Assembly (NCBI RefSeq): GCF_000270285.1
Contig: NC_015738.1
Location: forward strand, 310,001-374,000
Length of the DNA: 64,000 bases
Source: Eggerthella sp. YY7918
Lineage (GTDB): Bacteria; Actinomycetota; Coriobacteriia; Coriobacteriales; Eggerthellaceae
Direction of reading: 5' to 3'
Position 1 is the first letter of the stretch, and every line of letters starts with the position of its first letter. Under the pieces are notes generated by a model, which was not told where the DNA came from, searched no databases, and worked only from the letters and a program-made list of their open reading frames with translations. Positions 27,791 to 46,262 of this stretch are shown one piece after another. The position numbers were made by a program, and so were the translations under genes.

Positions 27791-27806
27791 TGGCACGTAA
27801 GTTGCT
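27791..27806 (+). promoter_or_regulatory. sigma-54 (-24/-12) promoter of the first CoA transferase
   Basis: TGGCAC-GTAAG-TTGCT is an exact match to the TGGCAC-N5-TTGCW consensus, with GG and GC separated by 10 bases. It lies about 130 bases before the start at 27937. Confidence 0.88.
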
Positions 27807-27936
27807 AGAAGGAATCCAGAGCATTCGCTATCCCCGCAAAACGCGTATGCGGCGAAGCGAAGGCGGGGCCAAACCAGCAAAAGATCCGCGACGTACCCGA
27901 AGCGGATAAGGACACGGGATCCAAGGAGGTATGGGA

Positions 27937-29184
27937 ATGAAATCGACGGAACGTCCCAAGTTCGGCAACCTGCAGAATTTAAAGGTGCTTAATGCAGGCG
28001 CTGTCATCGCGGCACCGTTTGTATGCGAGCTGTTCGCCGAACAGGGCGCCGATGTTATCGAACTCGAAAGCACGGTTGCTCCCGACATGTATCGCATGTA
28101 TGGCGATGCCTGGTCGGTCGATCGCCGCAATCAGCGCATGATGACGCTCAACATCCCCTCGCCCGAGGGCAAAGAAATCCTTCTTCAAATGGTGAAGTGG
28201 GCCGATGTGCTTGTTGAGTCGTCCAAGGGCGGCACCTGGGCGAAGTGGGGTCTGACCGACGAGGTCTTGTGGGAATCCAACCCCGCCCTCGTCATCCTGC
28301 ATATTTCCGGCTTTGGCAACTGGGGCGATCCGTCCTACGTCAACCGGGCGTCGTTTGATCCCATCGGTCAGGCGTTTTCGGGCTACTCCAACATCAACGG
28401 CTTCCCTGACAGTCCGCCGAGTGTGACCAAGCCCTTCACCGGCGATTTTATGACCGGTCTCATGGGCGCTTGGGCCACGCTGGCCGCCGTCATTCGCGCC
28501 CGCGAAACGGGCGAAGGCGAGTCCATCGACTGCTGCCAGTTCGAGGCGCTTGTCAGATTGCAAGGCGCAACGCTTTCCGACGGCATCAATCACGGCATTC
28601 AGCCGCCGCGTTTGGGCAACGAAGATCTGGTGGGTGCGTGCGCCGGTTCACAGAAGTGCAAAGACGGCTACTGCCAGGTTGCGGTGGGCGGTGCCGGCCC
28701 GGTGAAGAAGCTGGTTGAATTCTTCGGCTTTGCCGACGATCCCGATTTCCAGCCGCTTGGATCGTACCCGTCCATCACGCGCAAGCCCGGTTGCAAGAGC
28801 CTGGACGAGCCGCTGCCCGATCGTGCTGCCAAGTTCCGTCGCGCCATCGATACCTGGTGCGCCGAGCACACGGTCGAAGAAGTGAACAAGACCTTCGGCG
28901 AGATGGGCGTTGCGGTCAGCCCGCACATGACCTACGAGATGATGCTTGAAGATCCGCACTATCAGGCGCGCGAGGTATTTGTGGACTGCTACGACGAAAT
29001 CACGGATAAGACGATCAAGCAGGTGAACATGATCCCGCGCTTCAAGAACCATCCGGGCCAGATTGTGCGCGGCGGAGCGAAGTACGACGCGGATACCAGA
29101 GACATCCTCGAGGAGTTCGGCTACTCGGAGCAAGAAATTGAGCTTCTGTACGAACGGGGCGTGTTGAAGAAGGGCGATCAGTAG
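27937..29184 (+). CDS. CaiB/BaiF-family (class III) CoA transferase, copy 1
   Basis: Family III CoA transferase, expected to move CoA from one acyl-CoA to another carboxylate in the cytosol. The product is 415 residues from ATG 27937. The ATG at 27931 is one base from AAGGAGG and therefore too close. The N-terminus VLNAGAVIAAPFVCELFAEQGADVIELE is the family's signature start. Asp170 in TGDFMTGLMGA aligns with the catalytic Asp169 of CaiB and formyl-CoA transferase. DPHYQAREVF and the NHPGQI tail are also typical. It has a sigma-54 promoter of its own and is followed by an MFS carrier, an arrangement repeated at 31763-34448. Substrate not readable. Confidence 0.93.
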   Translation: MKSTERPKFGNLQNLKVLNAGAVIAAPFVCELFAEQGADVIELESTVAPDMYRMYGDAWSVDRRNQRMMTLNIPSPEGKEILLQMVKWADVLVESSKGGTWAKWGLTDEVLWESNPALVILHISGFGNWGDPSYVNRASFDPIGQAFSGYSNINGFPDSPPSVTKPFTGDFMTGLMGAWATLAAVIRARETGEGESIDCCQFEALVRLQGATLSDGINHGIQPPRLGNEDLVGACAGSQKCKDGYCQVAVGGAGPVKKLVEFFGFADDPDFQPLGSYPSITRKPGCKSLDEPLPDRAAKFRRAIDTWCAEHTVEEVNKTFGEMGVAVSPHMTYEMMLEDPHYQAREVFVDCYDEITDKTIKQVNMIPRFKNHPGQIVRGGAKYDADTRDILEEFGYSEQEIELLYERGVLKKGDQ

Positions 29185-29197
29185 ATTGCAAAGACGC

Positions 29198-29222
29198 GGG
29201 CAGCCCGCTTTCAGGGCTGCCC
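29198..29222 (+). terminator. hairpin after the first CoA transferase
   Basis: GGGCAGCCC (29198-29206) pairs with GGGCTGCCC (29214-29222) over a 7-base loop, 14 bases after the stop codon. No T-tract follows. It could be a weak terminator or a 3'-end stabiliser ahead of the next sigma-54 promoter. Confidence 0.5.
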
Positions 29223-29279
29223 CTTCCCCTGGGGTACGTAGCAGAAACGGTAGCCGGCGTTCCGTTGCAGAGGAAACTG

Positions 29280-29295
29280 CGGCACGGTTTTTGCT
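29280..29295 (+). promoter_or_regulatory. sigma-54 (-24/-12) promoter of the first MFS carrier
   Basis: CGGCAC-GGTTT-TTGCT keeps the invariant GG and GC 10 bases apart and differs from consensus only at the first base. It lies 50 bases before the start at 29345. Confidence 0.75.
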
Positions 29296-29344
29296 AGCGA
29301 TACAGCGCATCGTTTAAGGATGCGGATAGAGACAAGGAGAGAAA

Positions 29345-30616
29345 ATGGGAACTCAAACCAAAGGCAGCAATTACGCCTGGGCGGTAGCTATCGCTTGTGT
29401 GGCGTTCTACGCTGTCCCGCTTGGCTTCGCGGCTAATCACGCGGGCCTGTTCATCACTCCGGTCATGGATCAGTTCGGTTGGTCTCGTACCGACGCGACG
29501 CTGTTCATGTCCCTTCAGCCTTGGGTGGCTGCCATCTGCACACCTATTGCTGGCAAGCTTATTTCCAAGTACAACCCGCGCTGGATTATGACGGCCGCGG
29601 TGTTGGCGTTTGGTCTGGCCAACTTGGCCTGCGCCTGGTTCACCGAGCCGTGGCAGTGGCACATCTATGGCATCATCTACGGCGCTTCCGCCGCCTTCTG
29701 GATGTACATCGCCACGCCGACGTTCGTGAATCGCTGGTTCGCCAAGAGCAACGGCACGGTCATCGGCACCATCGGCGTTATGGTGTCGCTGCTCGGCGCC
29801 ATCATGAGCCCCGTCATCCAGGGTTGGATTACCAGCATGGGTTGGCAGACGGCTCGTATCATCTGCTCCGTTATCGTTATCGTGCTGGGCGCGGGCGTAA
29901 CGGCGCTGCTGCTTCGCGAATCTCCCGAAAAGATGGGCGTGTTGCCGTGGGGCTACAGCGAAGCTGAAGCCGAGGCGAGCAAATCCGAAACCAAGGCGAC
30001 CATCGATGTTGCCAACGACGAGGGCGCAACGGCCGCTCAGGCTCGTAGGAGCCCTGCTCTGTGGCTGCTCATCGTAATGGCCGGCTTCTTTGTAATCTCG
30101 GCATCGTTTGTACAGCAGCTGGCATCCTACGCTTCGGTTACCGAGGGCTTGGGTGCTGCGGTTGGCGCTATGGCTGTGTCGGTTGCTATGGTTACTTCGA
30201 TGGCCGGTAAGTTTGGTCTGGGTTGGATTTCCGACCACTTCGGTGCGCGTGCTGCGGGTATCACCGCTGGCGTGCTTGGTGCCGCGGGTGCGTTTATCTG
30301 CTTCATCGGCGGCGCGAACGTCATGATGTTCTATGTGGGCGTTGGCCTGTTCGGTATCGGCTACTCCGCGCTGAACGTTGTTCCTCCGATGACCTGCCGT
30401 CAGGCGTTTGGTCAGAAGGACTACGCGAACGTGTTCTCCATCGTTGCTACCGGTCTGAACGTGTTCTCGGGCTTTTCGGCTCTCATCTACGCGCAAATCT
30501 TTGACATCACCGGTTCGTTTGCTGGCGCATTCTGGATGATCATCGTGTTCTACGTGGTTATCGTGTTCCTGTCGCTGGTTATCGTGCCGATGGGTCGCAA
30601 GATCTGGGCGAAGTAA
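29345..30616 (+). CDS. MFS transporter (OFA/BaiG-like), copy 1
   Basis: A 423-residue inner-membrane carrier with about 12 hydrophobic helices in two halves, split by a charged cytosolic loop near residues 200-225. AGKLISKYNPRWIM and the later GKFGLGWISDHFGAR are MFS loop-2/loop-8 type motifs. The family resembles oxalate/formate antiporter-like and BaiG-like carriers that work beside CaiB-type transferases. ATG 29345 has AAGGAGAGAAA in front. It has its own sigma-54 promoter. It probably imports the carboxylate used by this cluster or exchanges it for the product. Confidence 0.9.
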   Translation: MGTQTKGSNYAWAVAIACVAFYAVPLGFAANHAGLFITPVMDQFGWSRTDATLFMSLQPWVAAICTPIAGKLISKYNPRWIMTAAVLAFGLANLACAWFTEPWQWHIYGIIYGASAAFWMYIATPTFVNRWFAKSNGTVIGTIGVMVSLLGAIMSPVIQGWITSMGWQTARIICSVIVIVLGAGVTALLLRESPEKMGVLPWGYSEAEAEASKSETKATIDVANDEGATAAQARRSPALWLLIVMAGFFVISASFVQQLASYASVTEGLGAAVGAMAVSVAMVTSMAGKFGLGWISDHFGARAAGITAGVLGAAGAFICFIGGANVMMFYVGVGLFGIGYSALNVVPPMTCRQAFGQKDYANVFSIVATGLNVFSGFSALIYAQIFDITGSFAGAFWMIIVFYVVIVFLSLVIVPMGRKIWAK

Positions 30617-30657
30617 GTCGTACAACCCATGCGCCGGGGCTGCAAACCCGGCTGTGG

Positions 30658-30684
30658 CGGGCCGCCTTCGGGCGGCCCGTTTTT
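30658..30684 (+). terminator. Rho-independent terminator after the first MFS gene
   Basis: CGGGCCGCC-TTCG-GGCGGCCCG followed by T5 (30680-30684): a 9-bp GC stem closed by a UUCG tetraloop. It separates the first CoA-transferase/MFS pair from the Hsp70-like gene. Confidence 0.93.
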
Positions 30685-30749: not shown

Positions 30750-30809
30750 TCTGTCAGAGAGGGGGGCGAGTTTGTTGCTTCTGTCAGATGGTGTGAGCGA
30801 GTTTGTTAC
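30750..30809. repeat. imperfect 30-bp tandem direct repeat at the Hsp70-like gene's 3' end
   Basis: TCTGTCAGA and GCGAGTTTGTT occur in the same order at 30750-30776 and 30780-30807. The second copy includes the stop codon of the minus-strand Hsp70-like gene and the first lies just beyond it, so the gene's end appears to have been duplicated. Confidence 0.6.
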
Positions 30810-31573
30810 CTCCACCACTTGGCAACTTCGATGCTGAGCTGTTCGAGTCGCTCGTCCTTAACCTTAAGCTGCTCGACCGCATCGTGAAGCGCGCGCATGG
30901 ACGCGGGTGTGATATCGGGTGGCATAACGCGCAGCGCAGCTTCCACTCGTCCGCGAATTTTCTTATAGCCGCGCTGCTCGAAGAACGACATTTTGCGCTT
31001 TGCAAGGCTGTAGTGTTCATACGCGGTATCAAGCAGTTTGTAAGCATCCAGCATATCTTGGATCGCCGCGCGGGTTTCGTCATCCTTTTCGGCGTGTTGG
31101 TGCGCGTCATCCAGAGCTGTCTGCACCTCTTCGGCGCTCACCTGCTCCTTCAAGTTGTGAACAAGAATCTCATCGCGCTTGCGGTCTTTGTTGTCGGTGG
31201 AAACGCTGAGCCTTCCCTGTTTATCAAGATCAAACACCAGCTCGATCTTCGGCACTCCCGCACCGCTCCATTTCACGTTTCGCACACGAATGCGGCACAG
31301 GCTGATGTTGTCCTGCACAAGGGGGCGCTCTCCCAACACGAGATGAAACTCGGCGGCCGTTTGGTAGGACTGTGCGGTCGAATACAATTCACGGCGCTGG
31401 TGGGGAAGTCGAACTCCCCGCTCTATCACGTGTTGGCTGCGCCCACCGGGAATTTCAATTCCCAAGCTGAGCGGCATCACGCCGTCAGGCGCGGCAATAC
31501 TGATAGAAACGGCATTCGAACCCTCTTTGACGGTTTGATTGCTCGAACGGGAAGAACCTGTTTTGTGTGCCAT
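30806..31573 (-). CDS. orphan Hsp70 substrate-binding domain protein (no ATPase domain)
   Basis: A 255-residue cytosolic protein that matches only the C-terminal half of DnaK. Residues about 28-130 align with the beta-sandwich substrate-binding domain: MPLSLGIEIPGG, VIERGVRLP, LYSTAQSYQTAAEFHLVLGE, then GVPKIELVFDLDKQGRLSVS. Residues 135-250 form the helical lid, with the DAHQHAEKDDETR region. The 380-residue nucleotide-binding domain is absent and no remnant lies upstream; the ORF starts cleanly at ATG 31573 with a short polar N-terminus. It therefore cannot cycle with ATP by itself. It lies antisense between the two CoA-transferase/MFS units, divergent from the second sigma-54 promoter. It may hold clients for the cluster's enzymes or act with the cell's DnaK; both ideas are inference. 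Confidence 0.88.
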   Translation of the reverse strand: MAHKTGSSRSSNQTVKEGSNAVSISIAAPDGVMPLSLGIEIPGGRSQHVIERGVRLPHQRRELYSTAQSYQTAAEFHLVLGERPLVQDNISLCRIRVRNVKWSGAGVPKIELVFDLDKQGRLSVSTDNKDRKRDEILVHNLKEQVSAEEVQTALDDAHQHAEKDDETRAAIQDMLDAYKLLDTAYEHYSLAKRKMSFFEQRGYKKIRGRVEAALRVMPPDITPASMRALHDAVEQLKVKDERLEQLSIEVAKWWR

Positions 31574-31636
31574 AGCTCACTCGCTTTCATGGATATCAGT
31601 ATCCCCTTTCTATTCAGCGCAAAATTCGTGCCAAGT

Positions 31637-31652
31637 TGGCATCTATTTTGCT
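31637..31652 (+). promoter_or_regulatory. sigma-54 (-24/-12) promoter of the second CoA transferase
   Basis: TGGCAT-CTATT-TTGCT with GG and GC 10 bases apart. It lies about 110 bases before the start at 31763. A small palindrome, GGATA-TCAG-TATCC, lies upstream at 31591-31604. Confidence 0.82.
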
Positions 31653-31762: not shown

Positions 31763-33004
31763 ATGAAGTCATCCGAATGCCCCAAGTTTGGTCCCTTGCA
31801 AGGAGTGAAGGTGGTAAACCTCACTATGGCTATTGCCGGGCCATTTGCCTGCAGCCTGTTGGCTGACCTGGGCGCGGAGGTTATCGGTGTGGAAAGCCCC
31901 CGCGGTCGCGATACCTCGCGGCCCACAAATCAGGCGTTGCAAGGGTGGGGCACGCAGATGGAACGCCGCAATACGCGCTCGCTTTGCATGAACGTTAAAG
32001 ATGGGGCGGGCCGCGAGTGGTTCTTTGAGCTGCTCAAGCAAGCCGACATCCTTATGGATGGTTTCCGTGGCGGACAGATGGCCAAGTGGGGCATGACCGA
32101 CGAGGCGCTCTGGGAAATCAATCCAAAGCTCACCATCGCGCACATTTCGGGATTCGGCCAAACGGGCGATCCCGCATACATCGAGCGGGCCTCGTTTGAC
32201 GGTATCGGCCAAGCGTTCGGGTGCTTCATGGAAATGAATGGATATCCCGATCGTCTGCCCGTCCTCGCGTTTCCGCAGGTGTCTGACTACTATGCGGGCT
32301 TCATGGCCAGCGTGGGAGCGTTGGCCGGCTACATCAACGCGCAGCGCACCGGCAAGGGCGACAGCGTGGATGTAGCCCAATACGAGGCGATGCTGCGCTG
32401 CGAGGGCTTCTATGCGGTGAACTATCTCAACACGGGTGCACTGCCGGTGCGGGAAGGTTCGCACAGCACCTCAAGCGCCGGCTACGGCACGTACATCTGC
32501 AAAGACGGCGTTCCTATTTACACGCTTATTCTCGGACCCGGAGTGGTGCGGGCCGCCCTGCCGCTCTTCGGTCTTGAATACGGAAGCGAGCTGTTCCCCG
32601 AAGGAACGCCAGTCATTTCGTTTGGAAGCGAAGCGGGCAACGTGCTGGAAGAGGCCATGGAGCGCTTTTTCAGCGAGCACACCGCCGAAGAGGCTGAGCA
32701 GTTGATGCTGAAGGCAGGCGTGCCGTGCAGCCGCATTTACACGTACGAGATGGCCGAACAAGATCCGCATTACCTTGCTCGCGAAAGTTTCACCGAGTGG
32801 AAGAACTCCTATGACGACGGCACCATTCGCGGCGTAAACATCGTACCTCGCATGAAGAACAATCCTGGTCAAATATGGCGCGGCATGCCGCTCGTCGGCG
32901 CTGACAACGAGGATATCCTCGAAGAGTTGGGCGCGTCAGCCGAACAGATTGAGGGGCTTTATGGCGAAGGCCTGCTCAAGAAAGAAGAGGGTCCGTTCGG
33001 CTAG
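31763..33004 (+). CDS. CaiB/BaiF-family (class III) CoA transferase, copy 2
   Basis: The product is 413 residues from ATG 31763, which has AAGGAGG at 31750-31756. The open frame runs much further upstream but is antisense to the Hsp70-like gene and has no coding sense. The N-terminus is very close to copy 1 (MKSSECPKFGPLQGVKV versus MKSTERPKFGNLQNLKV), so the two are paralogues. Asp175 in VSDYYAGFMA is the predicted catalytic Asp. The C-terminal pattern (EQDPHYLARESF, NNPGQIWRG) also matches copy 1. Cytosolic. It probably uses a different acyl pair from copy 1, or supplies the product-side exchange; substrate unknown. Confidence 0.93.
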   Translation: MKSSECPKFGPLQGVKVVNLTMAIAGPFACSLLADLGAEVIGVESPRGRDTSRPTNQALQGWGTQMERRNTRSLCMNVKDGAGREWFFELLKQADILMDGFRGGQMAKWGMTDEALWEINPKLTIAHISGFGQTGDPAYIERASFDGIGQAFGCFMEMNGYPDRLPVLAFPQVSDYYAGFMASVGALAGYINAQRTGKGDSVDVAQYEAMLRCEGFYAVNYLNTGALPVREGSHSTSSAGYGTYICKDGVPIYTLILGPGVVRAALPLFGLEYGSELFPEGTPVISFGSEAGNVLEEAMERFFSEHTAEEAEQLMLKAGVPCSRIYTYEMAEQDPHYLARESFTEWKNSYDDGTIRGVNIVPRMKNNPGQIWRGMPLVGADNEDILEELGASAEQIEGLYGEGLLKKEEGPFG

Positions 33005-33107: not shown

Positions 33108-33117
33108 TTAGCCAACT

Positions 33118-33133
33118 TGGCATGGTATTTGCT
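33118..33133 (+). promoter_or_regulatory. sigma-54 (-24/-12) promoter of the second MFS gene and downstream operon
   Basis: TGGCAT-GGTAT-TTGCT with GG and GC 10 bases apart, 53 bases before ATG 33186. No further terminator or promoter is evident until after 42048, so it probably drives the six genes 33186-42048. Confidence 0.82.
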
Positions 33134-33185: not shown

Positions 33186-34448
33186 ATGAGTACAGCACGT
33201 ACCAAAGGAGCCGTGTGGGCGTGGCTCGTCGTTCTCGGTTGTATAGGTTTCTACTCTATTCCAACCGGCGTTATTGGTAACACGTCAGGTATTTTCGTAG
33301 CACCGGTCATGGATCAGTTCGGTTGGTCGCAAACCGACACCACCATGTACCGTACCATCCAGCCCCTGGTGTCAGCTATTTGCGCGCCCATTGCAGGCAA
33401 GCTTATGGAAAAGTACAACCCGCGCTGGATACTTGCGGTGGTGTCAGCGGCATTCGGTCTTGCCTCGTTGGCGAGCGCCTATGCGACCGAGCTGTGGCAA
33501 TGGAACCTGTACGGCGTCGTGTACGGCATAACTGCGGCATTCTATATGTATCTGGCTGCGCCGGTTTTGATCAATGTGTGGTTTAAGAAGAGCGCAGGAC
33601 TCGCCATCAGCATTACCGCTGCTGTGCTGTCCATTTTGGCCGCCATCGCCAGCCCGGTGGGACAAGAGCTCATCAACCAGTATGGTTGGCAGACCTCCCG
33701 CGCTATCCTTTCAATTTTCACGACGGTTCTTTCAGTTGTGATGACCATTGCCTTTGTGCGCAAGAGCCCCTCGGTCATGGGCCTGCTTCCCTTTGGTGCG
33801 GATGAGGAAGGCGACGAAGAAGAAGAGGCAGTTGCCATAGAACAAGAAGGCGCCACCGTTGCTCAGGCCATCAAATCGCCCGGCCTGTACCTGCTCATTT
33901 TGGTGGCATGCATCTTCGTTATGTGTGCGGCGTTCTTCCAGCAGATTCCTGCGTTTGCAGCACATGGTGCGCTCGGCGCCGGAGCAGGCGCTATGGCGGT
34001 GTCGATCATCATGGTGGGCGGCGTGGTATTCAAGCTGGTGCTTGGTGCGCTCAACGACAAAATTGGCGTCAAGTACACGGGCATTATCGCTGCGAGCTGC
34101 GGTGCGCTGGGCATCTTCCTTGCCTTTATCGCAGGCGAAAACGTGGCTTTGTTCTATGCGGGCATGGTGATTTTTGGCGGTGGCTATGCAGGCCTTACGG
34201 TTATCGCACCGATGCTTGCACGTGCCTCGTTCGGGTCGCTTAACTACTCGCAAATTTACTCCTGGGTGTCTACCGGCATCTTCATCGCCACGGCCGTTTC
34301 ATTCTTGGTATACGGCTCCATCTACGACACCACCGGTTCGTTCGACCTGTGCTTCATCTTGGTCATCGCCCTGTATCTGTTGGCTGTGGTGTTGGTTCCC
34401 CTCACCATCGTGCTTTCGCAGAGGGCTTGGAAGAAAAAGAACAAATAG
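33186..34448 (+). CDS. MFS transporter (OFA/BaiG-like), copy 2
   Basis: The product is 420 residues from ATG 33186, which has AAGGAGA upstream; an earlier start at 33153 would add a charged leader before the ribosome site. It has about 12 hydrophobic helices and a central acidic loop (around EEGDEEEEAVAIEQEG). It is clearly paralogous to copy 1: FVAPVMDQFGWSQTDTTMY and AGKLMEKYNPRWIL match the same positions. It is an inner-membrane carrier for the cluster's substrate, product or an exchanged acid. It is the first gene of the long operon, and the next start is 38 bases after its stop. Confidence 0.9.
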   Translation: MSTARTKGAVWAWLVVLGCIGFYSIPTGVIGNTSGIFVAPVMDQFGWSQTDTTMYRTIQPLVSAICAPIAGKLMEKYNPRWILAVVSAAFGLASLASAYATELWQWNLYGVVYGITAAFYMYLAAPVLINVWFKKSAGLAISITAAVLSILAAIASPVGQELINQYGWQTSRAILSIFTTVLSVVMTIAFVRKSPSVMGLLPFGADEEGDEEEEAVAIEQEGATVAQAIKSPGLYLLILVACIFVMCAAFFQQIPAFAAHGALGAGAGAMAVSIIMVGGVVFKLVLGALNDKIGVKYTGIIAASCGALGIFLAFIAGENVALFYAGMVIFGGGYAGLTVIAPMLARASFGSLNYSQIYSWVSTGIFIATAVSFLVYGSIYDTTGSFDLCFILVIALYLLAVVLVPLTIVLSQRAWKKKNK

Positions 34449-36591: not shown

Positions 36592-37407
36592 GTGGCGATG
36601 AAGAGTGTGACTGTGCTGAGCTCAGAACCTGCTGTTTCGGCAGACGAAACGGTGCGGGATGTCGTGTATGCCGAGCATCTTGAAGGCGGGATCGAGGTCG
36701 TGTACCTCAACCAGCCGCACAAAAAGAATGCCATTTCGGCCGAGATGATGGACAAGCTCGATCAGGTGCTGCGCCAGGCGGATCTCAGCGACGAGGTGCG
36801 GGTTGTGGTGCTGCGGGGTGTCGGCGAAAACTTTTCGAGCGGGGGAGACCTGAACCAAGGTCCCTCCGCTCCGGGACCCGAGGGATCGCGTAAAACATTG
36901 CGGCGCTATCTCAGTGTGGTGCGTACGGTGCGTACGATGGCAAAGCCAGTCATCGCTATGGTTGACGGGTATGCCGTGGGAGGGGCGTTTGCGCTTACGC
37001 TTGCAGCCGATTTGGTGTGCGCATCGGAACGGGCACTGTTCGTTCCGGCGTTTTGCCAGATCGGCATCATTCCCGAGATGGGAATGATGAAGCTTTTGCC
37101 CGAGCTGGTGGGCCAGCAGCGTGCGAAAGAAGTGCTGTTCTTCGGCGGCAAGATTCCGGCAGCGCAGCTTCAGGACTGGGGTTTGGTGAACCGGGTGTTT
37201 CCCTCTGATGTGTTGGAGAAGGAAACGCTTGCTTTTGCGCGACAGTTGGCAGCTATGCCAGATGCTTCCATCCAGATTACGAAGAACATCATGAATGCGT
37301 TGTCTGACGGAAATCTTGAAGCGTGTTTGGAGGCGGAGTCGACCGCGTCGCCGTTCTGTACGACCACGAAGGCATACGCCGCCACCATGGAGAAATTTGC
37401 TCGTTGA
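36592..37407 (+). CDS. enoyl-CoA hydratase/isomerase (crotonase) family protein
   Basis: A 271-residue cytosolic crotonase. The GTG at 36592 lies 5 bases after GAGGAG, and a second possible ATG is two codons in. The oxyanion-hole segments are visible as ENFSSGGDLNQG and the later DGYAVGGAFALTLAADLV. The acidic pair that activates water is less clear: IGIIPEMGMMKLLPELVG keeps a Glu where many members have their second catalytic Glu. It could hydrate, dehydrate or isomerise a CoA-bound double bond. CaiD of the carnitine pathway is a comparable partner of CaiB. It is tightly spaced between the oxidoreductase and ligase genes. Confidence 0.9.
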   Translation: MAMKSVTVLSSEPAVSADETVRDVVYAEHLEGGIEVVYLNQPHKKNAISAEMMDKLDQVLRQADLSDEVRVVVLRGVGENFSSGGDLNQGPSAPGPEGSRKTLRRYLSVVRTVRTMAKPVIAMVDGYAVGGAFALTLAADLVCASERALFVPAFCQIGIIPEMGMMKLLPELVGQQRAKEVLFFGGKIPAAQLQDWGLVNRVFPSDVLEKETLAFARQLAAMPDASIQITKNIMNALSDGNLEACLEAESTASPFCTTTKAYAATMEKFAR

Positions 37408-37431: not shown

Positions 37432-40014
37432 ATGGCGTACTGTAACGTTGTTGAGCCGTTTCTTGAAAGCGTGCGCCGACATCCTGACAAGACGGCGGTC
37501 GTGTTCGACGGTAGTGAAATTACGTATGGCGAGCTGAATGATCGCATCAATCGGACAGCTCGCCTGCTCGTGGACGATATGGGCGTGAAGGCGGGCGATA
37601 GGGTGGCGTATCTGCTGCCCAATTGTCCCGAGATTATAGAAATCTACTACGCTCTGCAAAAGATCGGCGCCATCGCGGTGCCGCTTAACTTCAAACTTAT
37701 CGCGCGCGAAGTGGGCTATCTCGTCAATGCGAGCGGAACGAGCGTGCTGCTGTTCGCGCGTCAGTTTGCCGACAAGGTGAAAGAGGCCGCGGACGAGTTT
37801 GTGAACGACGTTGCGCTGTTGAGCGTCGGCGGGTCGACCGAAGGGGCTCGCTCGTTTGAAGAGGTACGAGCAAGCAAGGGTGCCGAAGAACCGCTGCTGT
37901 TTTGCGACGCGCGTGCACTCTCGCGCATCCAATACACCGGCGGTTCGACGGGCATACCCAAGGGGGCGGCTCGTACGCATGCGGCCGACCTGGTAGAACT
38001 CGATGCCATCATGGACTCCAACGGCATCGCCGACAATCCTGACAACGTGGTGCTTATCCAGTGTCCGCTTGAACATCACGGTGGTCATAGCTGGTTCACC
38101 ATAGCGTTTGCCGCGGGAGCGACCGTTGTCGTTTGCGAGGCGTTCAACGCTGAGCAGATTCTGCACTTTATCGAGCGCTATCGGGTCACGTATATGATCT
38201 TGCTGCCGCCCACCACCTACCTGAGGCTTTTGCGTTGCCCCACCATCGATCAGTATGACCTCAGCTCGGTGCGTCTTGTGCAAAGCTCGGCAGGCGCCAC
38301 AACCGAGCCCATCATTCGAGCCATTTACGACAAGTTCCCCCATGCGGTACTCAACTACGGATGGGGACAATCGGAAAGCGGTGCAGGCGCGAGCCTACGT
38401 ATCACGCGTGAAATGCTGGAAGAACAGTCTCCGCTGCTCCAAAGCGTCGGGCGGCCGATGAAGCACGTACAGATGAAGGTGGTGGATGAGGAGGGAAACG
38501 AGCTGCCGGATGGACAGGTGGGGGAGGCGCTGTTCAAGTCCGATGCTGTTATGAGTGGTTACTACGGCCAAGACGATGCCACCGAAGCGGCGTTCACACC
38601 TGACGGATGGCTGCATACGGGCGACTTGATGATGCGTGACGCGCAAGGATACTACTACGTGCGTTCGCGCAAGAAGGACATGATCAAGTCCGGCGGTGAA
38701 AACGTGTTCGTCGCCGAGGTGGAGACGGTGCTGCGCACCCATCCCGATATCGACGATTGCCTGGTGTTCGGCACGAGCGATGCGGTGATGGGCGAGGCGG
38801 TTGCTGCCGTCATTCAGCCGCGCAAGGGAGCAAATTTGACGGCTGCTGAAGTGCAGAACCATTGCAAGCGCCATATTGCCAGCTACAAGAAGCCGCGCTA
38901 CGTCGTCTTCATGGACGATATGGGTCGTGACGATGCCGGCAAGGTGCGCAAGCGCGATATTGAAGCGTTCTTCGATGCGCATAAGGAGCAGGCGGCTCCT
39001 CGCTATCACGAGAAGATTTGTTCTCAGCCGGATATCTATCTTATCCAGGTGCCGTTCTCGCAAGGAACACCCATCGGGTACACCAATACCTATCTTATCC
39101 TGACCGACGAGCGCAATCTTTTGGTGGACCCGGGCGTGAGCCATGAAGCGTCGTATGAGGTGCTGCGCTCGGCGCTGGTCGATCTGTGCGTCGACATGGC
39201 AAAAACGGATATATTTCTTACTCATCTGCACATAGACCACGTGGGACTTGCGGCGGCAATTGCGCACGAGGATACGCAGGTATATATGAGCGCGGACGAC
39301 GAAGCGCTGTTCCGTGCGCGTGGCGTGCATTCATATAGGGGTACGTTCAAAGAGAGGATCATACAGGAAGGCTTCGAACGCGCGGATCTTGAAGAGCTTC
39401 AACGAACCGACGAAAACCTCATTCCGCGGGCGGAGTGGCCGATGCCCGAACGATTTGTGAATCTGGCCGACGGGCAGCAGCTGCGCTACGGCTCCTACCG
39501 TCTACAGGTGGTGGCTACGCCGGGGCATACGCCAGGGCATCAGTGCCTCTACCTTCCCGATCAGCAGATCATGTTCTATGGCGACCATGTTCTGTTGAAC
39601 AGCTCGCCCAACATAGCGCCGTTTCCTGAGGTGGCCGACGCCTTGGGCGACTACCTGGCAAGCTTGAACAAAATCTCGCGCTATCCCGTGAAGCTTGCCT
39701 GCATGGGGCATGGATTCGTCGAACCGAAGGACCAGGCGCGCATGTTGCCGCAGCGTATTCAGTGGCTTCAAGACCACCATGCCCATCGGCTCGAGGAAAT
39801 TCTGGCCCGACTTGCAGAGCGTCCCGGCATGAATGGCACGGAAGTTGCTAAGTCCATCTCATGGAACATCCCGCATAAAACCTGGGAGGAACTCCCCATC
39901 ATTCAGCGCTGGATCATCGTGTGCGAAACGCTTGCCCATCTTGATCATCTGATGATCGAAGGACGCGTTTCAAGAACGTATGACCAGGGCGTATATCGTT
40001 ACTTTGTGGGATAA
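37432..40014 (+). CDS. acyl-CoA ligase fused to a metallo-beta-lactamase-fold hydrolase
   Basis: An 860-residue two-part enzyme. Residues 1 to about 525 are an AMP-forming acyl-CoA synthetase: IQYTGGSTGIPKGAARTHA (P-loop), YGWGQSESG, DGWLHTGDL, SRKKDMIKSGGENVF, and a terminal GKVRKRDIEAFF with the catalytic Lys. Residues about 535-860 are a metallo-beta-lactamase domain of the LACTB2/glyoxalase-II-like type: HLHIDH at 598-603 as first metal ligands, TPGHTPGHQ, FYGDHVL, and a helical tail. The ligase should activate a carboxylate to its CoA thioester. The second domain could hydrolyse a thioester, lactone or ester. One unbroken frame covers both, and I see no internal ribosome site. BaiB and CaiC are single-domain analogues of the first half. 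Confidence 0.9.
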   Translation: MAYCNVVEPFLESVRRHPDKTAVVFDGSEITYGELNDRINRTARLLVDDMGVKAGDRVAYLLPNCPEIIEIYYALQKIGAIAVPLNFKLIAREVGYLVNASGTSVLLFARQFADKVKEAADEFVNDVALLSVGGSTEGARSFEEVRASKGAEEPLLFCDARALSRIQYTGGSTGIPKGAARTHAADLVELDAIMDSNGIADNPDNVVLIQCPLEHHGGHSWFTIAFAAGATVVVCEAFNAEQILHFIERYRVTYMILLPPTTYLRLLRCPTIDQYDLSSVRLVQSSAGATTEPIIRAIYDKFPHAVLNYGWGQSESGAGASLRITREMLEEQSPLLQSVGRPMKHVQMKVVDEEGNELPDGQVGEALFKSDAVMSGYYGQDDATEAAFTPDGWLHTGDLMMRDAQGYYYVRSRKKDMIKSGGENVFVAEVETVLRTHPDIDDCLVFGTSDAVMGEAVAAVIQPRKGANLTAAEVQNHCKRHIASYKKPRYVVFMDDMGRDDAGKVRKRDIEAFFDAHKEQAAPRYHEKICSQPDIYLIQVPFSQGTPIGYTNTYLILTDERNLLVDPGVSHEASYEVLRSALVDLCVDMAKTDIFLTHLHIDHVGLAAAIAHEDTQVYMSADDEALFRARGVHSYRGTFKERIIQEGFERADLEELQRTDENLIPRAEWPMPERFVNLADGQQLRYGSYRLQVVATPGHTPGHQCLYLPDQQIMFYGDHVLLNSSPNIAPFPEVADALGDYLASLNKISRYPVKLACMGHGFVEPKDQARMLPQRIQWLQDHHAHRLEEILARLAERPGMNGTEVAKSISWNIPHKTWEELPIIQRWIIVCETLAHLDHLMIEGRVSRTYDQGVYRYFVG

Positions 40015-40044: not shown

Positions 40045-41208
40045 ATGGATTTCAGTTTGACCGACGAACAGCAGCTGCTGCTGGAGAGTCTCGATGAGCT
40101 TATGGAGCGCTATTGCACCGAAGCGTATCTGAAGAAATGCGACGAGGCGCACGAATGGCCGCAGGAGTTTACCGATGCGCTTATGGAGAATGGCTTTGGG
40201 CTGCTTGGCATACCCGAGGAATACGGCGGCACGCCTGTGGACACGACCACGCTTATGCTCGTGTCGGAGCGCATCTGCAAAAACGGCGCACCCATTTACG
40301 TGTACGGCAGCGTATGCAGTCTTGTTGACATGATTGAGTACGGCAGCGAGGAGCAAAAGGCACAGTGCTTTGAGGAAGTGGCGGCCGGACGTCCTGGTTT
40401 TGTGCTGGGATTCACCGAGCCGGGTGCGGGTTCGGATAGCTCGGCGCTGGCATCCACCTATCAGCGTCGCGACGGCAAAGTGTATCTCAACGGAAACAAA
40501 TCGTTCATGACGAATGCGTGCAACTCGAAGTACATGCTGTGCGTGGCGCGTAATGCCGACGACGACCCCGACGATCCCAAAAACCGTTCGCGTTTCTCCA
40601 TGTGGTGGGTTCCCATGGATTCTCCGGGAATTACCGTTGAGCCGCTGGAAAAGATCGGCTGGAATATGGGCAACACCTGCGAACTTCACATGGAAAACGT
40701 TGAGCTTGAAGAGAAGGATCTTGTGGGTGTGGAAGGCAATGGGTTCATGCAGGCTATGGTGAACTTCGAGGTGGAGCGTCTGCTTGCCTGCGCCCAGTCG
40801 CTCGGTGCGGCCGAGTGTGCCTTCGAAGATGCCGTGCTCTACGCCACACAGCGTATCCAGTTCGGCAAACCTATTGGCAAGAACCAGCTCATTCAGGAGC
40901 ACATTACCAACATGTACGCAAAGATTGAGACCATGCGGGGGCTTGTATACAAGTGCGCGTGGATGATCGATCAGGGCCAATCCGTCCAAATCGACTCGGC
41001 TGTGTGCAAGCTGTACTGCGCTCGTGCCGCATGCGAGGTTATTGATACGGCGCTGCAGGTGATGGGTGGTATCGGGTACACGAAGGATTGCCGCATCTCG
41101 CGCTTGTGGCGCGATCAGCGTGTGTACCGCATCGGCGCCGGCACCGATGAAATCATGATCCATATTGCCGGCAGAGCGATTCAGAAGAAGTTTGCGGCGA
41201 AAGCCTAA
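40045..41208 (+). CDS. acyl-CoA dehydrogenase family protein
   Basis: A 387-residue FAD enzyme that inserts or, run backwards, removes an alpha-beta double bond in an acyl-CoA. FTEPGAGSDSSAL is the FAD/substrate loop, FGKPIGKNQLIQ the mid-domain helix and GGIGYTKDCRISRLWRDQR the C-terminal signature. The usual catalytic Glu near the end (YEGT-type) is replaced: the sequence is YRIGAGTDEI. Glu244 in FEVERLLA aligns instead with the isovaleryl-/long-chain-type catalytic Glu position. CaiA-like crotonobetainyl-CoA reductase is one possible analogue, but no etfAB pair is in the window. Cytosolic. ATG 40045 is 30 bases from the previous stop. Confidence 0.92.
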   Translation: MDFSLTDEQQLLLESLDELMERYCTEAYLKKCDEAHEWPQEFTDALMENGFGLLGIPEEYGGTPVDTTTLMLVSERICKNGAPIYVYGSVCSLVDMIEYGSEEQKAQCFEEVAAGRPGFVLGFTEPGAGSDSSALASTYQRRDGKVYLNGNKSFMTNACNSKYMLCVARNADDDPDDPKNRSRFSMWWVPMDSPGITVEPLEKIGWNMGNTCELHMENVELEEKDLVGVEGNGFMQAMVNFEVERLLACAQSLGAAECAFEDAVLYATQRIQFGKPIGKNQLIQEHITNMYAKIETMRGLVYKCAWMIDQGQSVQIDSAVCKLYCARAACEVIDTALQVMGGIGYTKDCRISRLWRDQRVYRIGAGTDEIMIHIAGRAIQKKFAAKA

Positions 41209-41250: not shown

Positions 41251-42048
41251 ATGGCTGAAATCTTCAATCCGATCGACGATCTTATTGCGGAGCAATCGCT
41301 GGTGGATGCGCTTGTCGCTGACTTTACCGAGGACGATTGGATGCGCACGGCGGCGTACTGCACCACATGGACGCTCAAAGACGTTATTTGTCATATCGCG
41401 TTTTTTGACTACTGCGCGGTTGAGCTTCTGGCCGGGCGTGGCGAGAGCGTGAACGCAGTGGCCGATGCCGCTTCCGAACAGGATGAACACTATCATGTAT
41501 TAGTGTATCGCGACCAAAGCGGTGCCGACATTCTTAACTGGTGGCGCGAACAGCGCACGCTTATGGCTGCTGCGTTTATGGAGCAGGGGCCGAAGGGTCG
41601 CGTGCCTTGGGCTGCGGGCATTCCGCCCATGTCGGTACGCTCGCTCGCGTCGGCGCGTCTTATGGAGCTGTGGGCTCACAGCGTTGATATTTACGATGCC
41701 TTAGGAATGGATCCCGTGGTGAAGGATCGCATTACGTCTACGCTGTTTTTGTCCTGGCAGGGTCGTCCCAATATGTACAACGTCAACGGCCTTACCTTTA
41801 ACCCTGAAATCCCCATGTATCTTGAGCTCACGTTGCCCTCCGGCGAAATCTGGGCGAAGGGCGAGCCAAACGATCAGAACTACATCAAGGGTTCGGCGAA
41901 GGACTGGGCGCTTGTTTCCATCCGTCGTCGCAACTGGATGGATACCGAGCTTGAGGTAGTAGGAGACGAGGCGCGCACATATGCCGGTATTGTACAGACC
42001 TATGCAGGGCCGGCCGATCCGGCTCCCGAAGCAAAGAACCCTCGGTAG
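41251..42048 (+). CDS. maleylpyruvate isomerase/DinB-like metalloprotein (TIGR03084-type)
   Basis: A 265-residue cytosolic protein of the DinB/mycothiol-dependent maleylpyruvate isomerase superfamily; it resembles the group I recall as TIGR03084. The N-terminal half is a four-helix bundle with the likely metal ligands His in VICHIAFFD and the ELWAHSVDIYDAL block. TWTLKDVICH and GIPPMSVRSLASARL are typical of that group. The C-terminal 90 residues form a separate lipid- or substrate-binding-like unit. Family members use mycothiol in actinobacteria with that thiol; Coriobacteriia are not known to make it, so the partner thiol is uncertain. It closes the sigma-54 operon and is followed by a hairpin. 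Confidence 0.8.
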   Translation: MAEIFNPIDDLIAEQSLVDALVADFTEDDWMRTAAYCTTWTLKDVICHIAFFDYCAVELLAGRGESVNAVADAASEQDEHYHVLVYRDQSGADILNWWREQRTLMAAAFMEQGPKGRVPWAAGIPPMSVRSLASARLMELWAHSVDIYDALGMDPVVKDRITSTLFLSWQGRPNMYNVNGLTFNPEIPMYLELTLPSGEIWAKGEPNDQNYIKGSAKDWALVSIRRRNWMDTELEVVGDEARTYAGIVQTYAGPADPAPEAKNPR

Positions 42049-42126: not shown

Positions 42127-42591
42127 CTATATCGTTTCGGGGCAAAAGGTCATCGGTTGAGGACAGCAGGAAAGACGGTCTTCACAGTCGGGGCAATCCG
42201 AAGCGATAAGCGGGGCTATGTCGTCCCAGTCAACGTGCGTACAGCCGAGCGCCTCATAGAAGGGAACCGCGCTGCCGCGGGCGACAAAGCGAAGTTCGCC
42301 ATAACGTTTTCCCGCGTAGTCCATAAGTGCCCGTCCGATGCCTCGTCCGCGTGCTTCGGCACATACGACGATGGGGCTGATGTGAGGACAGTCTTCTAGT
42401 TCGACAATGCGGATAAAGCCCAGAACCCGTTGATCGTCTGTGGCCACAAATGACCGTCCGGGAAACGAGAGTGCACCCATATCGGCTTCCAAAGCCAGTT
42501 CTGCAATAACAGCAGCATCCTGGTCGGTTGCTTCTCGTATGGAAATGGGTGAGGAATCGCGCTGCACAGGAGACCTTTCGTTTGAGCGCAT
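42127..42591 (-). CDS. GNAT-family N-acetyltransferase with Cys-rich tail (ArgA-like)
   Basis: A 154-residue acetyltransferase. The acetyl-CoA-binding motif A is ISPIVVCAEARGRGIGRALM (RGRGIGRA), followed by a beta-strand and FYEALGC near the end of the fold. The last 30 residues hold six Cys (CPDC, SCC, FC), a tail seen in small single-domain N-acetylglutamate-synthase-like proteins and able to bind metal. Substrate is inferred only. ATG 42591 was taken because the preceding region is AT-rich and promoter-like. It is convergent with the CoA operon and divergent from rpoN, so it probably has an independent role. Confidence 0.85.
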   Translation of the reverse strand: MRSNERSPVQRDSSPISIREATDQDAAVIAELALEADMGALSFPGRSFVATDDQRVLGFIRIVELEDCPHISPIVVCAEARGRGIGRALMDYAGKRYGELRFVARGSAVPFYEALGCTHVDWDDIAPLIASDCPDCEDRLSCCPQPMTFCPETI

Positions 42592-42654
42592 GCAAGTGTA
42601 AGCGATGATACTACAACTAAATGTTTAGCAAAAAACATGCCAGAGTTAGTATTT

Positions 42655-42663
42655 TGCTATAAT
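42655..42663 (+). promoter_or_regulatory. extended -10 promoter of rpoN
   Basis: TGCTATAAT is a perfect extended -10 box. It sits 125 bases before the rpoN start in a strongly AT-rich stretch shared with the divergent acetyltransferase. No clear -35. A small dyad, GACTC-N5-GAGTC (42747-42761), lies in the leader. Confidence 0.6.
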
Positions 42664-42787
42664 GTATTGAAAATTTCACAAAATAAGCTAAAATATAACC
42701 CCACATGAGAGAGTTTGTCTAAACGGGTGGCAAAGGGATACTTGTTGACTCTTGACGAGTCTGGGGCGACATGTAGAGAGGGGATAT

Positions 42788-44215
42788 ATGCCGAGAAGCG
42801 GGAGCCAGACGGTACGTATGGAGCCGAGGGCTGGTGTCGCTCCGCGCACTAAGCAGCGATTTGCTCCTACGGCTATCCAAGGACTTGAAGTGCTTGCGTT
42901 GCCCGTCGCCCGACTGGATGCCTACGTGAGCGCCTTGGTGGAACAGAATCCCCTGCTCGATTTCGATTACGATCGCTCATCGCTTGTCTTTGAAGAGTTG
43001 CCCGAAGAAACTGACGAAGACGAGCGTGGCACTGACGATCGCACCTCTGGCGATCAGCCGTTTCTTCCCCCACGTTCTGTTTCGTTCGGTTCAAAGGAAG
43101 GCTTCGATCTTGCCCGTTTGCGCGATGAGTACAGCGAAACGGAGACCCTTCACAGCCATATGCGCATGCAGATAAGTGAAGCCGATCTGAACGAAGCCGA
43201 TCGCAGATTGCTTGACGCCATCATAGAAAACATCGACGACGACGGATATTTTTCCGGAAGCATGCCGGCCGTATGCGCGGAGCTGGACTGCCCGGTCTCT
43301 GAGGGGGAGCGTATGCTTTCCTTTATTCAAGGGCTTACCCCGCGCGGGGTGGGCGCGCGCACGTTGGTCGAGTGTTTGACGCTGCAGCTTACTCCGGACA
43401 TGCCCTATGCTTCGATCATTGCCACGCTGCTGCGCGACAATATGGAGGACTTGGCCGAGAACCGCACGACAAAACTGATGCGCTCCTATCGACTGACCAT
43501 CGACGATCTTGCCGCTATTCGTCAGGTTATCTGCGGCCTCGATCCCCGACCGGGGGCTTCGTTTTCGCAGCGTTCGAATACCGTCTATGTCATTCCCGAT
43601 ATCACCATCACGCGCGAGGGGTCCGGGTTCTCTGTGCGCGTGACGGGCGAGCTTGCGGAAACGGTTGTGATCAACGGCGCCTATGTCGATATGCTTGACC
43701 ACGGCGCTCTCGATGCCGAAGCCCGGGAGTGGTTAGTTGAGAAGCGCAGCGAAGCCGATGTCGCATTGGCAAACATCGACCAACGTAAGCAGACGCTTCA
43801 TCGGTTTGGCACCTATCTGGTTGAAGCCCAGTACGATTTTTTCTGCGGCGGCGAAGCGCGCATGCGACCACTCACCATGCAGAAAGCCGCCGATGCGCTG
43901 GGCGTGCACGTGTCTACCATCAGCCGTACCGTGCAGGACAAACACGTGCTCACGCCGTGGGGGGTCTATCCGCTCAAGCATTTCTTTTCAAGTGCAGTGG
44001 CGTGTTCGGCCGAAGAGCGTCGTCGCTCGCTCTCTTCGCTGGCCATCAAAGATCGCATCAAAGAGCTGGTGTCCCATGAGGATTGCCGCAAGCCTTTGAG
44101 CGACGAGGCGATAACAACCATTTTGAACAGCGAAGGCGTACAGATCAAGCGTCGCACCGTGGCAAAGTATCGAGAGGCTTTGGGTATAGGGAGGCAGTCG
44201 CAGCGTCGTAGGTAG
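42788..44215 (+). CDS. rpoN: RNA polymerase sigma-54 factor
   Basis: The product is 475 residues from ATG 42788 (GAGAGGGG upstream); an earlier start at 42752 would add 12 residues. Region I is recognisable ([19 protein letters not shown] followed by EQNPLLD). The core-binding region has the [16 protein letters not shown] motif. The C-terminus carries the RpoN box [13 protein letters not shown] from residue 455, which reads the -24 element. It directs polymerase to -24/-12 promoters but needs an ATP-driven activator to open them. That activator is encoded 13 bases downstream, and four matching promoters lie in the preceding 15 kb. Only one rpoN is visible here. Confidence 0.97.
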
Positions 44216-44228
44216 AAAAGGAGGACTC

Positions 44229-46262
44229 GTGGTATACCAAAAAGAGCACGCGATCGAGGCATGGAAGACATTCGTCAGCTCGGGAACTATTCTCGAAGGT
44301 AAGGTACGCCCCGAAATCGCCCGCTCATGGATTCGGTGTCGCAGGGCGGGCGTGAATCCATGGTCGAACGATTTTGCGGATCAAAATGCCCCGCTGCTCG
44401 AGGAGAAGCGGAGCCGTTTTGCCGCTTCTTTGCGGGCAACGACGCCGGTTATGAAATTCCTCAAAACGATGCTGGGATCAAACGTCTCGCTTATGGACGG
44501 CGAAAACTTTGTGTTCGAACTTATCTCGCCTTTGCCCACCTATCCGCGAACGTACGGCACGTTTATGCGCGAAGAGGACGTGGGTACGGGTAATGCCACC
44601 ATTGTGGCGTATGAAAAACGCCCGGTGCGGGTGGATGGGTTTGAGCATTATCGCGCTATCGCGCAAAACTATTCCGGCGTTGCCGCACCCTATCTCGATT
44701 CGGCTGGCAAGTACTTTGGCGCGCTCAACATCAACAGCCCCTTTGCGGTGCTGCCGCAGAGCGCCCTTGAGCTGTGCACGATAGGGCTTGAGTTAACAAA
44801 CGACCTGTTTCGTGCGCGCTCAAAAGCGGGCGCGCTTCTGTCCACGGTCGATTTCTTCAAACCGCTCATGTTGGCTTACGAGCATCCGGTGCTGCTCATC
44901 GACTTCGAGGGGCGCATTTTGGGGGCAAACGCGTGGATGCGGCCGTACTGCCCCGACTGGGAACAGTATTCGTACGGATCGCAGTCGCTCGGTGCATATT
45001 TGGGCAAGGATATGGGGGTGCGAGACATTCTGGGATTGCTCGATAAGCTTGACGCACCGATGTCGATTAAGTTCAAGAAGGGTCGCTCGCGCGCGGTGCA
45101 AGAGCTGAGCCTCGTGCGTCAAGGCGTGGTGGATATCGAAGGGCAAGAGCCGTTCATTATGCTTGTGTTCGAAAACGGAGGCGAGGTGGAGCGCAACGCA
45201 AAGACCACCGCAGGACGTCGCAGCAATGCCGAGGTTATGCCCACCGGCGACAAGGTGGACTACATCGGCGAAACTGAGGAGTGGCAAAAGATTGACCGCA
45301 TGGTACAAAAGGTCGCTCCCATCAAGACTAACGTGCTTCTATTGGGAGAAACGGGAACCGGCAAGGAAGTGGTGGCGCGGGCGCTGCATCGGCGAAGCGG
45401 GCGTACGGGCGAGTTTGTGGCCATCAACTGTGGCGCTCTGCCGCGCGACCTGCTTGCCACCGAACTGTTCGGCTATGAGGGAGGGGCGTTTACGGGCGCG
45501 CGCGAAACAGGTGCCATTGGAAAGTTTGAATACGCCGACGGAGGTACGCTTTTTTTGGACGAGATCGGCGAAATGCCGGTCGATATGCAGGTCAGCTTGC
45601 TGCGCGTGCTGCAGGAGCAAAGCGTAACCAAGCTGGGATCGAATACGTCCAAAGCGCTTGACGTGCGCGTTATTGCGGCCACGAATCAAAATATCGAGCG
45701 TCTTATTGCCGAGAAGAAGTTCCGCAGCGATTTGTACTATCGCCTGAGTCTTGTCGAAATACGTCTGCCGCAATTGCGCCGGCGCGTCGACGACATTCCT
45801 TTGTTGGCCGAATACTTTAACGGGCAGCTGTCTCCCGTGCTCAATCTGCCGTATACGCCGCTTCCTGCCGAGACGATCGATGCGCTTCGTGCTTACAGTT
45901 GGCCGGGAAACGTGCGCGAATTGCGCAATATTGTCGAGCGATGCTTGATCATGCAGGGCGAGGGGTCAAAGGTGACGGTCGAATCTCTTCCGGCCCATAT
46001 TGCCAATGCGGTGAACACCATGCCCGGTGGACCATCTGCTTCTGCGGGTGCCGAGGCGTCGAAGGGCGAGGCGGGAACAAGCGTGGAAGAAAGCTGGCGG
46101 GCCGAGGAGCGCCGTCGCATCGTTGCCGCGCTAGAGCGCTGCGATGGGAATTTGGCGGCGGCAGCAAGCGAGCTGGGGCTGCATTCCGACGAGCTGGTCG
46201 AGCTGCTCTCGGCAATTAATCTGCGCGTTCAAATGGTGGTCGAAGACGCCGCCGAGGCGTAG
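44229..46262 (+). CDS. sigma-54-dependent enhancer-binding transcriptional activator (AcoR-like)
   Basis: A 677-residue cytosolic regulator starting at GTG 44229 with AAAGGAGGA. The N-terminus [15 protein letters not shown] and a GAF-like domain (about 60-200) resemble AcoR. A PAS-like region follows at about 210-330. The AAA+ domain has GETGTGKE near 373, the sigma-54-contacting GAFTGA loop at about 419-424, and FLDEIGEMP as Walker B. The Fis-type HTH at the end ([14 protein letters not shown]) has an acidic second helix ([11 protein letters not shown]) where a basic R-x-T-L-x-R-K pattern is usual. Its position next to rpoN and the four sigma-54 promoters makes it the likely activator of the CoA cluster, with the effector sensed by GAF/PAS. 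Confidence 0.95.

Follow-up and report, generated by a model that had tools for sequence, protein, structure and literature searches.

Genes and -24/-12 sites of the cluster

A 64,000-nt stretch of the chromosome of Eggerthella sp. YY7918 (the window, whose coordinates are used below; G000 denotes this genome and other G numbers the compared genomes) carries a cluster of genes for enzymes of coenzyme A (CoA) thioesters, and at its 3' end the gene of a sigma-54 factor, rpoN1, followed by that of a sigma-54 activator. A preliminary description of this DNA had proposed that a sigma-54 regulon, complete with sigma factor and activator, lies next to a CoA-thioester pathway and is read from -24/-12 promoters at 27791, 29280, 31637 and 33118, and the sequence supports this proposal. 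All four sites lie where they had been placed, have the spacing GG-N10-GC and precede, as judged by Pfam, a CaiB-like or an MFS gene; one of them had been called an exact consensus match, and the site at 27791 is exact while the other three have one mismatch each to TGGCACNNNNNTTGCW. We found three more sites, at 31618(-), 39834(+) and 42627(-). The features of the cluster, hereafter module 1, are:

27791..27806, +, -24/-12 promoter of CaiB-like gene I; exact consensus, with orthologous sites in relatives
27931..29184, +, CaiB-like family III CoA-transferase I (Pfam CoA_transf_3)
29280..29295, +, -24/-12 promoter of MFS gene I; CGGCAC, recurs in relatives
29345..30616, +, MFS transporter I; top NCBIfam matches of monocarboxylate, bile salt and oxalate-formate types, all under cut-off
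30806..31573, -, Hsp70 protein of the substrate-binding domain only, without ATPase domain (profile positions 389-561 of 599)
31618..31633, -, -24/-12 promoter of the gene for the Hsp70 fragment; forms a back-to-back pair with the 31637 site
31637..31652, +, -24/-12 promoter of CaiB-like gene II
31763..33004, +, CaiB-like family III CoA-transferase II (Pfam; aligns full-length with E. coli CaiB)
33118..33133, +, -24/-12 promoter of MFS gene II; close spacing suggests that it also serves the OYE, crotonase and ligase genes
33186..34448, +, MFS transporter II (Pfam, NCBIfam)
34487..36577, +, OYE-type Fe-S flavoenzyme of the 2,4-dienoyl-CoA reductase / 'NCR' class (Pfam, NCBIfam, solved relatives)
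36592..37407, +, enoyl-CoA hydratase/isomerase family protein, crotonase (Pfam, NCBIfam)
37432..40014, +, acyl-CoA ligase fused to a metallo-beta-lactamase-fold domain (Pfam)
39834..39849, +, internal -24/-12 promoter in the ligase gene, 196 bp 5' of the acyl-CoA dehydrogenase gene; exact consensus
40045..41208, +, acyl-CoA dehydrogenase/reductase, YdiO equivalog, CaiA-like (NF008997, 640 bits, cut-off 537)
41251..42048, +, TIGR03084 / MDMPI-like metal-binding protein (Pfam, NCBIfam)
42127..42591, -, GNAT-family acetyltransferase (Pfam); adjoins rpoN in 12/14 module-1 loci
42627..42642, -, -24/-12 site before the GNAT gene (scan match)
42667..42694, +, sigma-70-like promoter before rpoN, TTGAAA-N16-TAAAAT; similar sequence 5' of rpoN in G054, G070 and G136 (by eye)
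42788..44215, +, rpoN1, sigma-54 (TIGR02395, 365 bits, cut-off 277)
44229..46262, +, sigma-54 activator, AAA+ with GAFTGA and Fis-type helix-turn-helix (Sigma54_activat, 219 bits, and HTH_8)

From MFS gene II to the ligase gene, through those of the OYE enzyme and the crotonase, the gaps are 38, 14 and 24 bp. The assignment of 42788-46262 to rpoN and a GAFTGA-type activator agrees with the profile matches, and GAFTGA can be read in the translation of the latter. RpoN1 matches the Pfam domains AID (24.4 bits, cut-off 23.8), CBD (158) and DBD (171), and its sequence contains the RpoN box.

The sites are far more frequent than expected. The window has five exact matches to TGGCAY-N5-TTGCW (TGGCAYNNNNNTTGCW, 0 mismatches), where dinucleotide shuffles average 0.13 and none of 100 reaches five; when one mismatch is allowed the numbers are 11 and 4.65, with one shuffle in 100 as high. 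At up to two mismatches to TGGCACNNNNNTTGCW no excess is seen in the window (42 against 36.7; 26/100 shuffles), so these weak matches are taken as noise and were dropped as evidence. The whole chromosome (3,123,671 bp) has 14 exact TGGCAY sites, against 3 for a reversed-pattern control, and five of the 14 fall within chromosomal positions 337791-352642, which is this cluster, about 15 kb or 0.5% of the genome (Poisson probability of at least five there at the control rate, about 5e-12). Eight of the other nine lie within open reading frames (ORFs) of at least 100 aa.

Joint occurrence of the cluster and rpoN in relatives

We examined 296 genomes of the class, counting as rpoN-positive those with a Sigma54_DBD match at E<=0.001. 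Such matches occur in 90 of them (89 above the model's cut-off) and in 21 of 396 sampled Actinomycetota genomes (18 above it). The flavoenzyme of the cluster (E<=1e-200) is found in 14 of the 296, all of them rpoN-positive, and in none of the 206 rpoN-negative genomes (hypergeometric probability 3e-8, uncorrected for kinship); by this marker, the cluster was not found in a relative lacking rpoN. We then read the neighbourhoods of 25 rpoN places in the family outside this genome and of 13 from other families of the class. The module-1 gene order around rpoN and activator is present in 14 Eggerthellaceae genomes, this one included. These are not the same 14 genomes that hold the flavoenzyme, since G250, whose flavoenzyme is diverged (53% identical), is left out and G254, which has it in two frames, is taken in. 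Two loci are partial (G206, where the contig begins at the ligase gene, and G254), and diverged variants are found at G102b and G250a.

The -24/-12 sites recur before the same genes across relatives and across genera, so that the co-conservation of promoters and genes, which the preliminary description had suggested looking for, is indeed found. At the divergent CaiB-II/Hsp70 pair the two sites stand back-to-back with an offset of 19 bp in 9/9 genomes with both sites at the pair; the arrangement is another one in G221 and G251, and G266 has no Hsp70 gene. An electron-transferring flavoprotein (ETF) gene pair lies directly 3' of the activator gene in 7/14 loci, each with its own -24/-12 site, which is 46-48 bp upstream in 7/7. 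No ETF pair is present at this place in the genome of strain YY7918, which has three ETF-beta genes elsewhere (43-47% identical to that of a relative). The internal site of the ligase gene is preserved inside a coding frame: its Gly, Thr and Ala codons are identical in 10/10 orthologues compared (of the 14 loci), whereas in the same alignment overall such identity holds for 17 of the 114 invariant A/G/P/T/V codons, a number that includes these three.

This conservation bears on the possibility that the sites are bound, yet housekeeping promoters mainly drive the pathway, with sigma-54 as a minor or relic input. A sigma-70-like match does stand before rpoN1. In the region as a whole, however, matches of that kind are no commoner than chance and in fact rarer than in shuffles (6 against 9.3), and relic sites would decay, not persist before the same genes in different genera and even within a coding frame. 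We consider this reading very improbable.

Within genera, the cluster and rpoN are present or absent together. Five genera (g1, g4, g6, g10 and g21) hold both module-positive and module-negative genomes, and in each of them, among the genomes listed, rpoN follows the module. The congener G112 has neither rpoN nor the module, and at the same chromosomal site it carries other ORFs: the flanking genes, for a C26 peptidase (61% identical) and a histidine kinase (84%), are about 4.5 kb apart in G112 and 18.6 kb apart here. In the genomes compared the cassette behaves as one unit, either there or lacking. Activators, counted as PF00158 matches at E<=1e-40, equal rpoN genes in number in 20 of 23 rpoN-positive Eggerthellaceae, with two of each in G000, G102 and G200, and all 22 Eggerthellaceae with such an activator are rpoN-positive.

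Some observations on these loci stand by themselves. A homologue of the stand-alone Hsp70 substrate-binding domain is present in 12/14 module-1 loci (among these, at another place in G254), and in nine of the 12 a divergent -24/-12 site lies 19 bp from that of CaiB II. In G136 the promoter of MFS II lies within a long inverted repeat that holds a mirrored copy of the promoter itself. One of the G112 ORFs between the flanks (5.2-9.7 kb of its locus) contains a Tat-like MELTRRSFLGIAG stretch. Finally, several relatives have an inverted repeat, TTAGCA-N7-TGCTAA, 5' of rpoN1 (window 42600-42700 and orthologous places), which resembles a -24/-12 site with TAG for TGG and possibly is an autoregulatory site. 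It was rejected as a general activator site, because its remaining matches are the promoters themselves, bar three stray matches with two mismatches.

A second CoA module and the proposed specificity of the two sigma-54 systems

Elsewhere on the same chromosome, at 725.7-737.9 kb, lies another CoA module, with an rpoN (rpoN2) and an activator of its own. It consists of a divergent activator gene and of genes for two DASS-like transporters (TIGR00785 scores below cut-off), ETF beta and alpha, a family III CoA-transferase, a dehydrogenase, a ligase and RpoN2. The dehydrogenase is acryloyl-CoA-reductase-like, at 302 bits against a cut-off of 640. This order is also found in G200b and G207; rpoN2 starts 8 bp 3' of the ligase gene in our genome, while the distance is about 1.5 kb in both others, and in G200b the ligase is in two pieces. 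The system described in the window had been called self-contained. Its conserved synteny, its joint presence and absence within genera and the near confinement of exact sites to the cluster bear this out, but the cell has another rpoN/activator pair for another CoA module.

The sites of module 2 differ from those of module 1. They read TGGCCA-N5-TTGCA, and not TGGCAC/T, and there are two per locus in 3/3 genomes, one near the start of the first transporter gene and one before or near ETF beta. In G000 and G200b the longest frame of that transporter starts 5' of the site, so a later start codon is assumed for it. The RpoN box differs too, being ARYRQ or ARFRQ in the three module-2 RpoNs: at the first changed position these have Arg in 3/3, and all 58 other rows of our alignment (56 distinct proteins) have Lys. 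Because both the RpoN box and the -24 element of module 2 are altered, insulation between the two sigma-54 systems is probable. Between the module-2 activator gene and the promoter (727.7-727.9 kb) we noticed by eye GAWACA-like tandem repeats about 10-11 bp apart, a candidate activator-binding array; G200b has such repeats as well, and G207 less clearly so.

A FastTree phylogeny of RpoN (61 rows, 59 distinct, as L033 duplicates G053 and L047 duplicates G022; the 175-aa G250b was left out) places three Eggerthellaceae lineages apart from the other RpoNs of the class: module 1 with the two variants, module 2, and seven others. Support is 0.975 for the monophyly of module-1 RpoNs and 1.0 for those of module 2. 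The branching order, which bears on a possible horizontal origin of the module RpoNs, is unreliable given the long branches and the rooting. One locus of the third lineage, which occurs in seven other Eggerthellaceae, was checked by Pfam (G074): here an MFS gene is preceded by an exact site, and a molybdopterin oxidoreductase gene by a site with one mismatch.

With both systems in view, it can be asked whether sigma-54 is here an ordinary global factor, with rpoN1 serving many genes and merely lying near one of its targets, and with activators that use either sigma factor. Most species with sigma-54 have several activators, according to a 2011 survey (PMC3162934), and one exact site of the genome-wide survey, which covered exact matches, lies outside the cluster and outside any ORF of at least 100 aa. 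Against this, strong activator matches in the genome are only two (E 1e-66 to 1e-67), one beside or near each rpoN, and two further PF00158 AAA+ matches are weak (2.5e-8 and 6.6e-6). The crowding of exact sites into the cluster, with nearly all others inside ORFs, the lack of rpoN in module-negative genomes of the five genera with both states, and the different -24 element of module 2 likewise speak against a global role, which we judge unlikely.

We consider it quite probable, from these sequence comparisons, that module 1 is a sigma-54 cassette dedicated to its pathway. Besides the stray exact site, several observations weigh against this assignment. GG and GC do not vary in the 60 -24/-12 sites that we tabulated, picked by hand from scan matches in 9 of the 14 genomes, but this is so by construction, because the scan fixed these letters and allowed one mismatch. 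Few sites are present in G206 and G254, and in the scan the variant cluster G102b, which has its own rpoN and activator, shows none before its genes. In several relatives the 42627(-) site is not retained as a full promoter, TAG replacing TGG, and its role is uncertain because they have TTAGCA-N7-TGCTAA at the same place. A shared upstream activator dyad was not found (5-bp dyads with gaps of 0-12, 200 bp upstream, 6 genomes; none common to at least three promoters). The N-terminal region of the activator, its putative sensor, gives no Pfam match up to E=10, and its likeness to the GAF domain of AcoR is one by eye. The equal numbers of rpoN and activator genes are broken by G155 (1:2), by G250 (2:1, one rpoN being a fragment) and by G274 (1:0, with rpoN near a contig end). 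Lastly, the TGGCCA form is known from three genomes, and its four matches genome-wide, two of them in module 2, compare with three for the reversed control.

Two published situations come close. In cells with several RpoNs, each of these is matched to its own promoters and activators, as here, and the promoter differences reported in PMC3162934 are at -11 (and at -12 in Bradyrhizobium); here the differences are in the -24 element and the RpoN box, and each RpoN is embedded in a catabolic cluster, in a phylum said to lack RpoN. Chlamydia, Borrelia and Lactobacillus plantarum also have one sigma-54 with one activator, but as a single system per genome in that survey, whereas here sets of sigma factor, activator and pathway, up to two per genome, are present or absent together. 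The same survey lists Actinobacteria as lacking a sigma-54 system. A 2025 survey found RpoN in 4/173 Actinomycetota at a first search and then concluded that the phylum 'effectively lacks a functional RpoN' (PMC12316311); its main text has no Coriobacter-, Eggerthell- or Slackia word. A paper that names Eggerthella sp. YY7918 as a carrier of nine Fe-S flavoenzymes (PMC7371122) does not contain the word sigma. In a limited literature search we found no earlier report of a sigma-54/RpoN system in Eggerthella or Coriobacteriia. A system that surveys deny to the phylum is found here with promoters and activator in 14 Eggerthellaceae genomes.

The probable pathway and its proposed regulation

The gene products point to the chemistry of module 1, and CoA-linked reduction of an acid is its likely function. 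Both CoA-transferases have E. coli CaiB as best match among solved proteins, at 269 bits for enzyme I (next protein 101) and 293 for enzyme II (next 137). The flavoenzyme is closest to the solved 6qkg 'NCR' (261 bits), presumably 2-naphthoyl-CoA reductase, and then to 2,4-dienoyl-CoA reductase (220). The metallo-beta-lactamase-fold domain of the ligase fusion is a possible built-in thioesterase. The model matched by the dehydrogenase, NF008997, is named PRK12341 acyl-CoA dehydrogenase, and we take it to represent YdiO. In an alignment with its best solved relative the dehydrogenase has Ala at the Glu position of the YEGT motif; that Glu is the usual catalytic base, so the enzyme may act as a reductase.

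Since both CoA-transferases match CaiB far above other solved families and the dehydrogenase resembles CaiA and YdiO, the reduction of carnitine, gamma-butyrobetaine or acylcarnitine by a cai-like pathway under sigma-54 has to be considered. The proteins fall under the carnitine-specific cut-offs, however: the CoA-transferases score 354 and 359 bits with the CaiB model NF002914 (cut-off 413) and the dehydrogenase 414 bits with the CaiA model NF002885 (cut-off 540). For this reason we did not accept carnitine as an established substrate. Both transporters are of the MFS_1 type by Pfam and not of the BCCT type, which is that of the carnitine transporter of the cai operon, and cai is not known to have a counterpart to the OYE enzyme or the metallo-beta-lactamase fusion. 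Carnitine-conjugated fatty acids are reported among the most depleted metabolites in PMC10234575. On balance, we find the cai-like reading doubtful.

A different proposal is that a plant-derived unsaturated or dienoic (cinnamate-like) acid is reduced and serves as electron acceptor, much as with the car operon of Acetobacterium. The relatives of the OYE enzyme and the ETF pairs that accompany the activator gene in half of the module-1 loci, each with its -24/-12 site, agree with it, as does the logic of caffeate reduction, which combines a ligase, a CoA-transferase and a reductase. But CarC scores only 162 bits against the dehydrogenase, behind 16 other solved proteins, and the cluster of our genome has no ETF pair. 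We regard a car-like substrate as possible, though not as the favoured expectation. In Syntrophorhabdus and Syntrophobacterales genomes, genes for a ligase, a crotonase and an OYE enzyme (36-37% identical to that of the window) stand in a row, a hint of an aromatic or dienoyl-CoA substrate.

With E. coli cai/ydi and Acetobacterium car, module 1 shares a CaiB-type CoA-transferase, a CaiA/YdiO-type reductase, a ligase, a crotonase and, in relatives, ETF. What it has of its own are predicted sigma-54 control, the two CoA-transferase/MFS pairs, the OYE Fe-S flavoenzyme, the ligase fusion and the Hsp70 fragment. The bai operon (bile acid 7-dehydroxylation) also has a BaiCD-like flavoenzyme, a CaiB/BaiF-type CoA-transferase, an MFS transporter and a ligase; in contrast, the flavoenzyme of module 1 is far under the BaiCD cut-off (NF041087, 297 bits against 825), and the cluster adds predicted sigma-54 control and an acyl-CoA dehydrogenase. 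Two adjacent ORFs, at window 5104-15693 (3529 aa) and 15996-26714 (3572 aa), immediately precede the cluster, and the second has an exported-looking N-terminus.

We propose that rpoN1 and the activator gene form a two-gene operon that would be read from the housekeeping-like promoter at 42667. The N-terminal region of the activator, by analogy with AcoR-type activators, may sense a compound of the pathway, upon which the protein would remodel RNA polymerase with RpoN1 waiting at the six to seven -24/-12 promoters of the cluster, whose sequences and conservation are described above. Their firing would switch on the two CaiB-like/MFS units, the OYE Fe-S flavoenzyme, the crotonase, the ligase fusion, the YdiO/CaiA-like reductase and, in some relatives, the ETF pair. 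These products are predicted to import a carboxylic acid, to activate it, first through the ligase and later through CoA exchange, and to reduce it as CoA thioester, probably as an electron sink.

For the family as a whole, we lean slightly towards the idea that sigma-54 has split in Eggerthellaceae into orthogonal catabolic cassettes, in which RpoN box and -24 element may co-evolve (Lys to Arg with TGGCAC to TGGCCA). If this is true, two mutually insulated sigma-54 systems work side by side in one cell. Genetic tools exist for Eggerthella lenta (PMC9734109). Module 1 bears on the identity of an inducer in the gut, for which its activator could serve as a ready-made sensor, on whether a sigma factor can be pathway-specific, coming and going with its pathway, and on whether the -24 sequence is dictated by residues of the RpoN box. 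For gut bacteria it may in addition provide an expression system that is orthogonal and tightly off.

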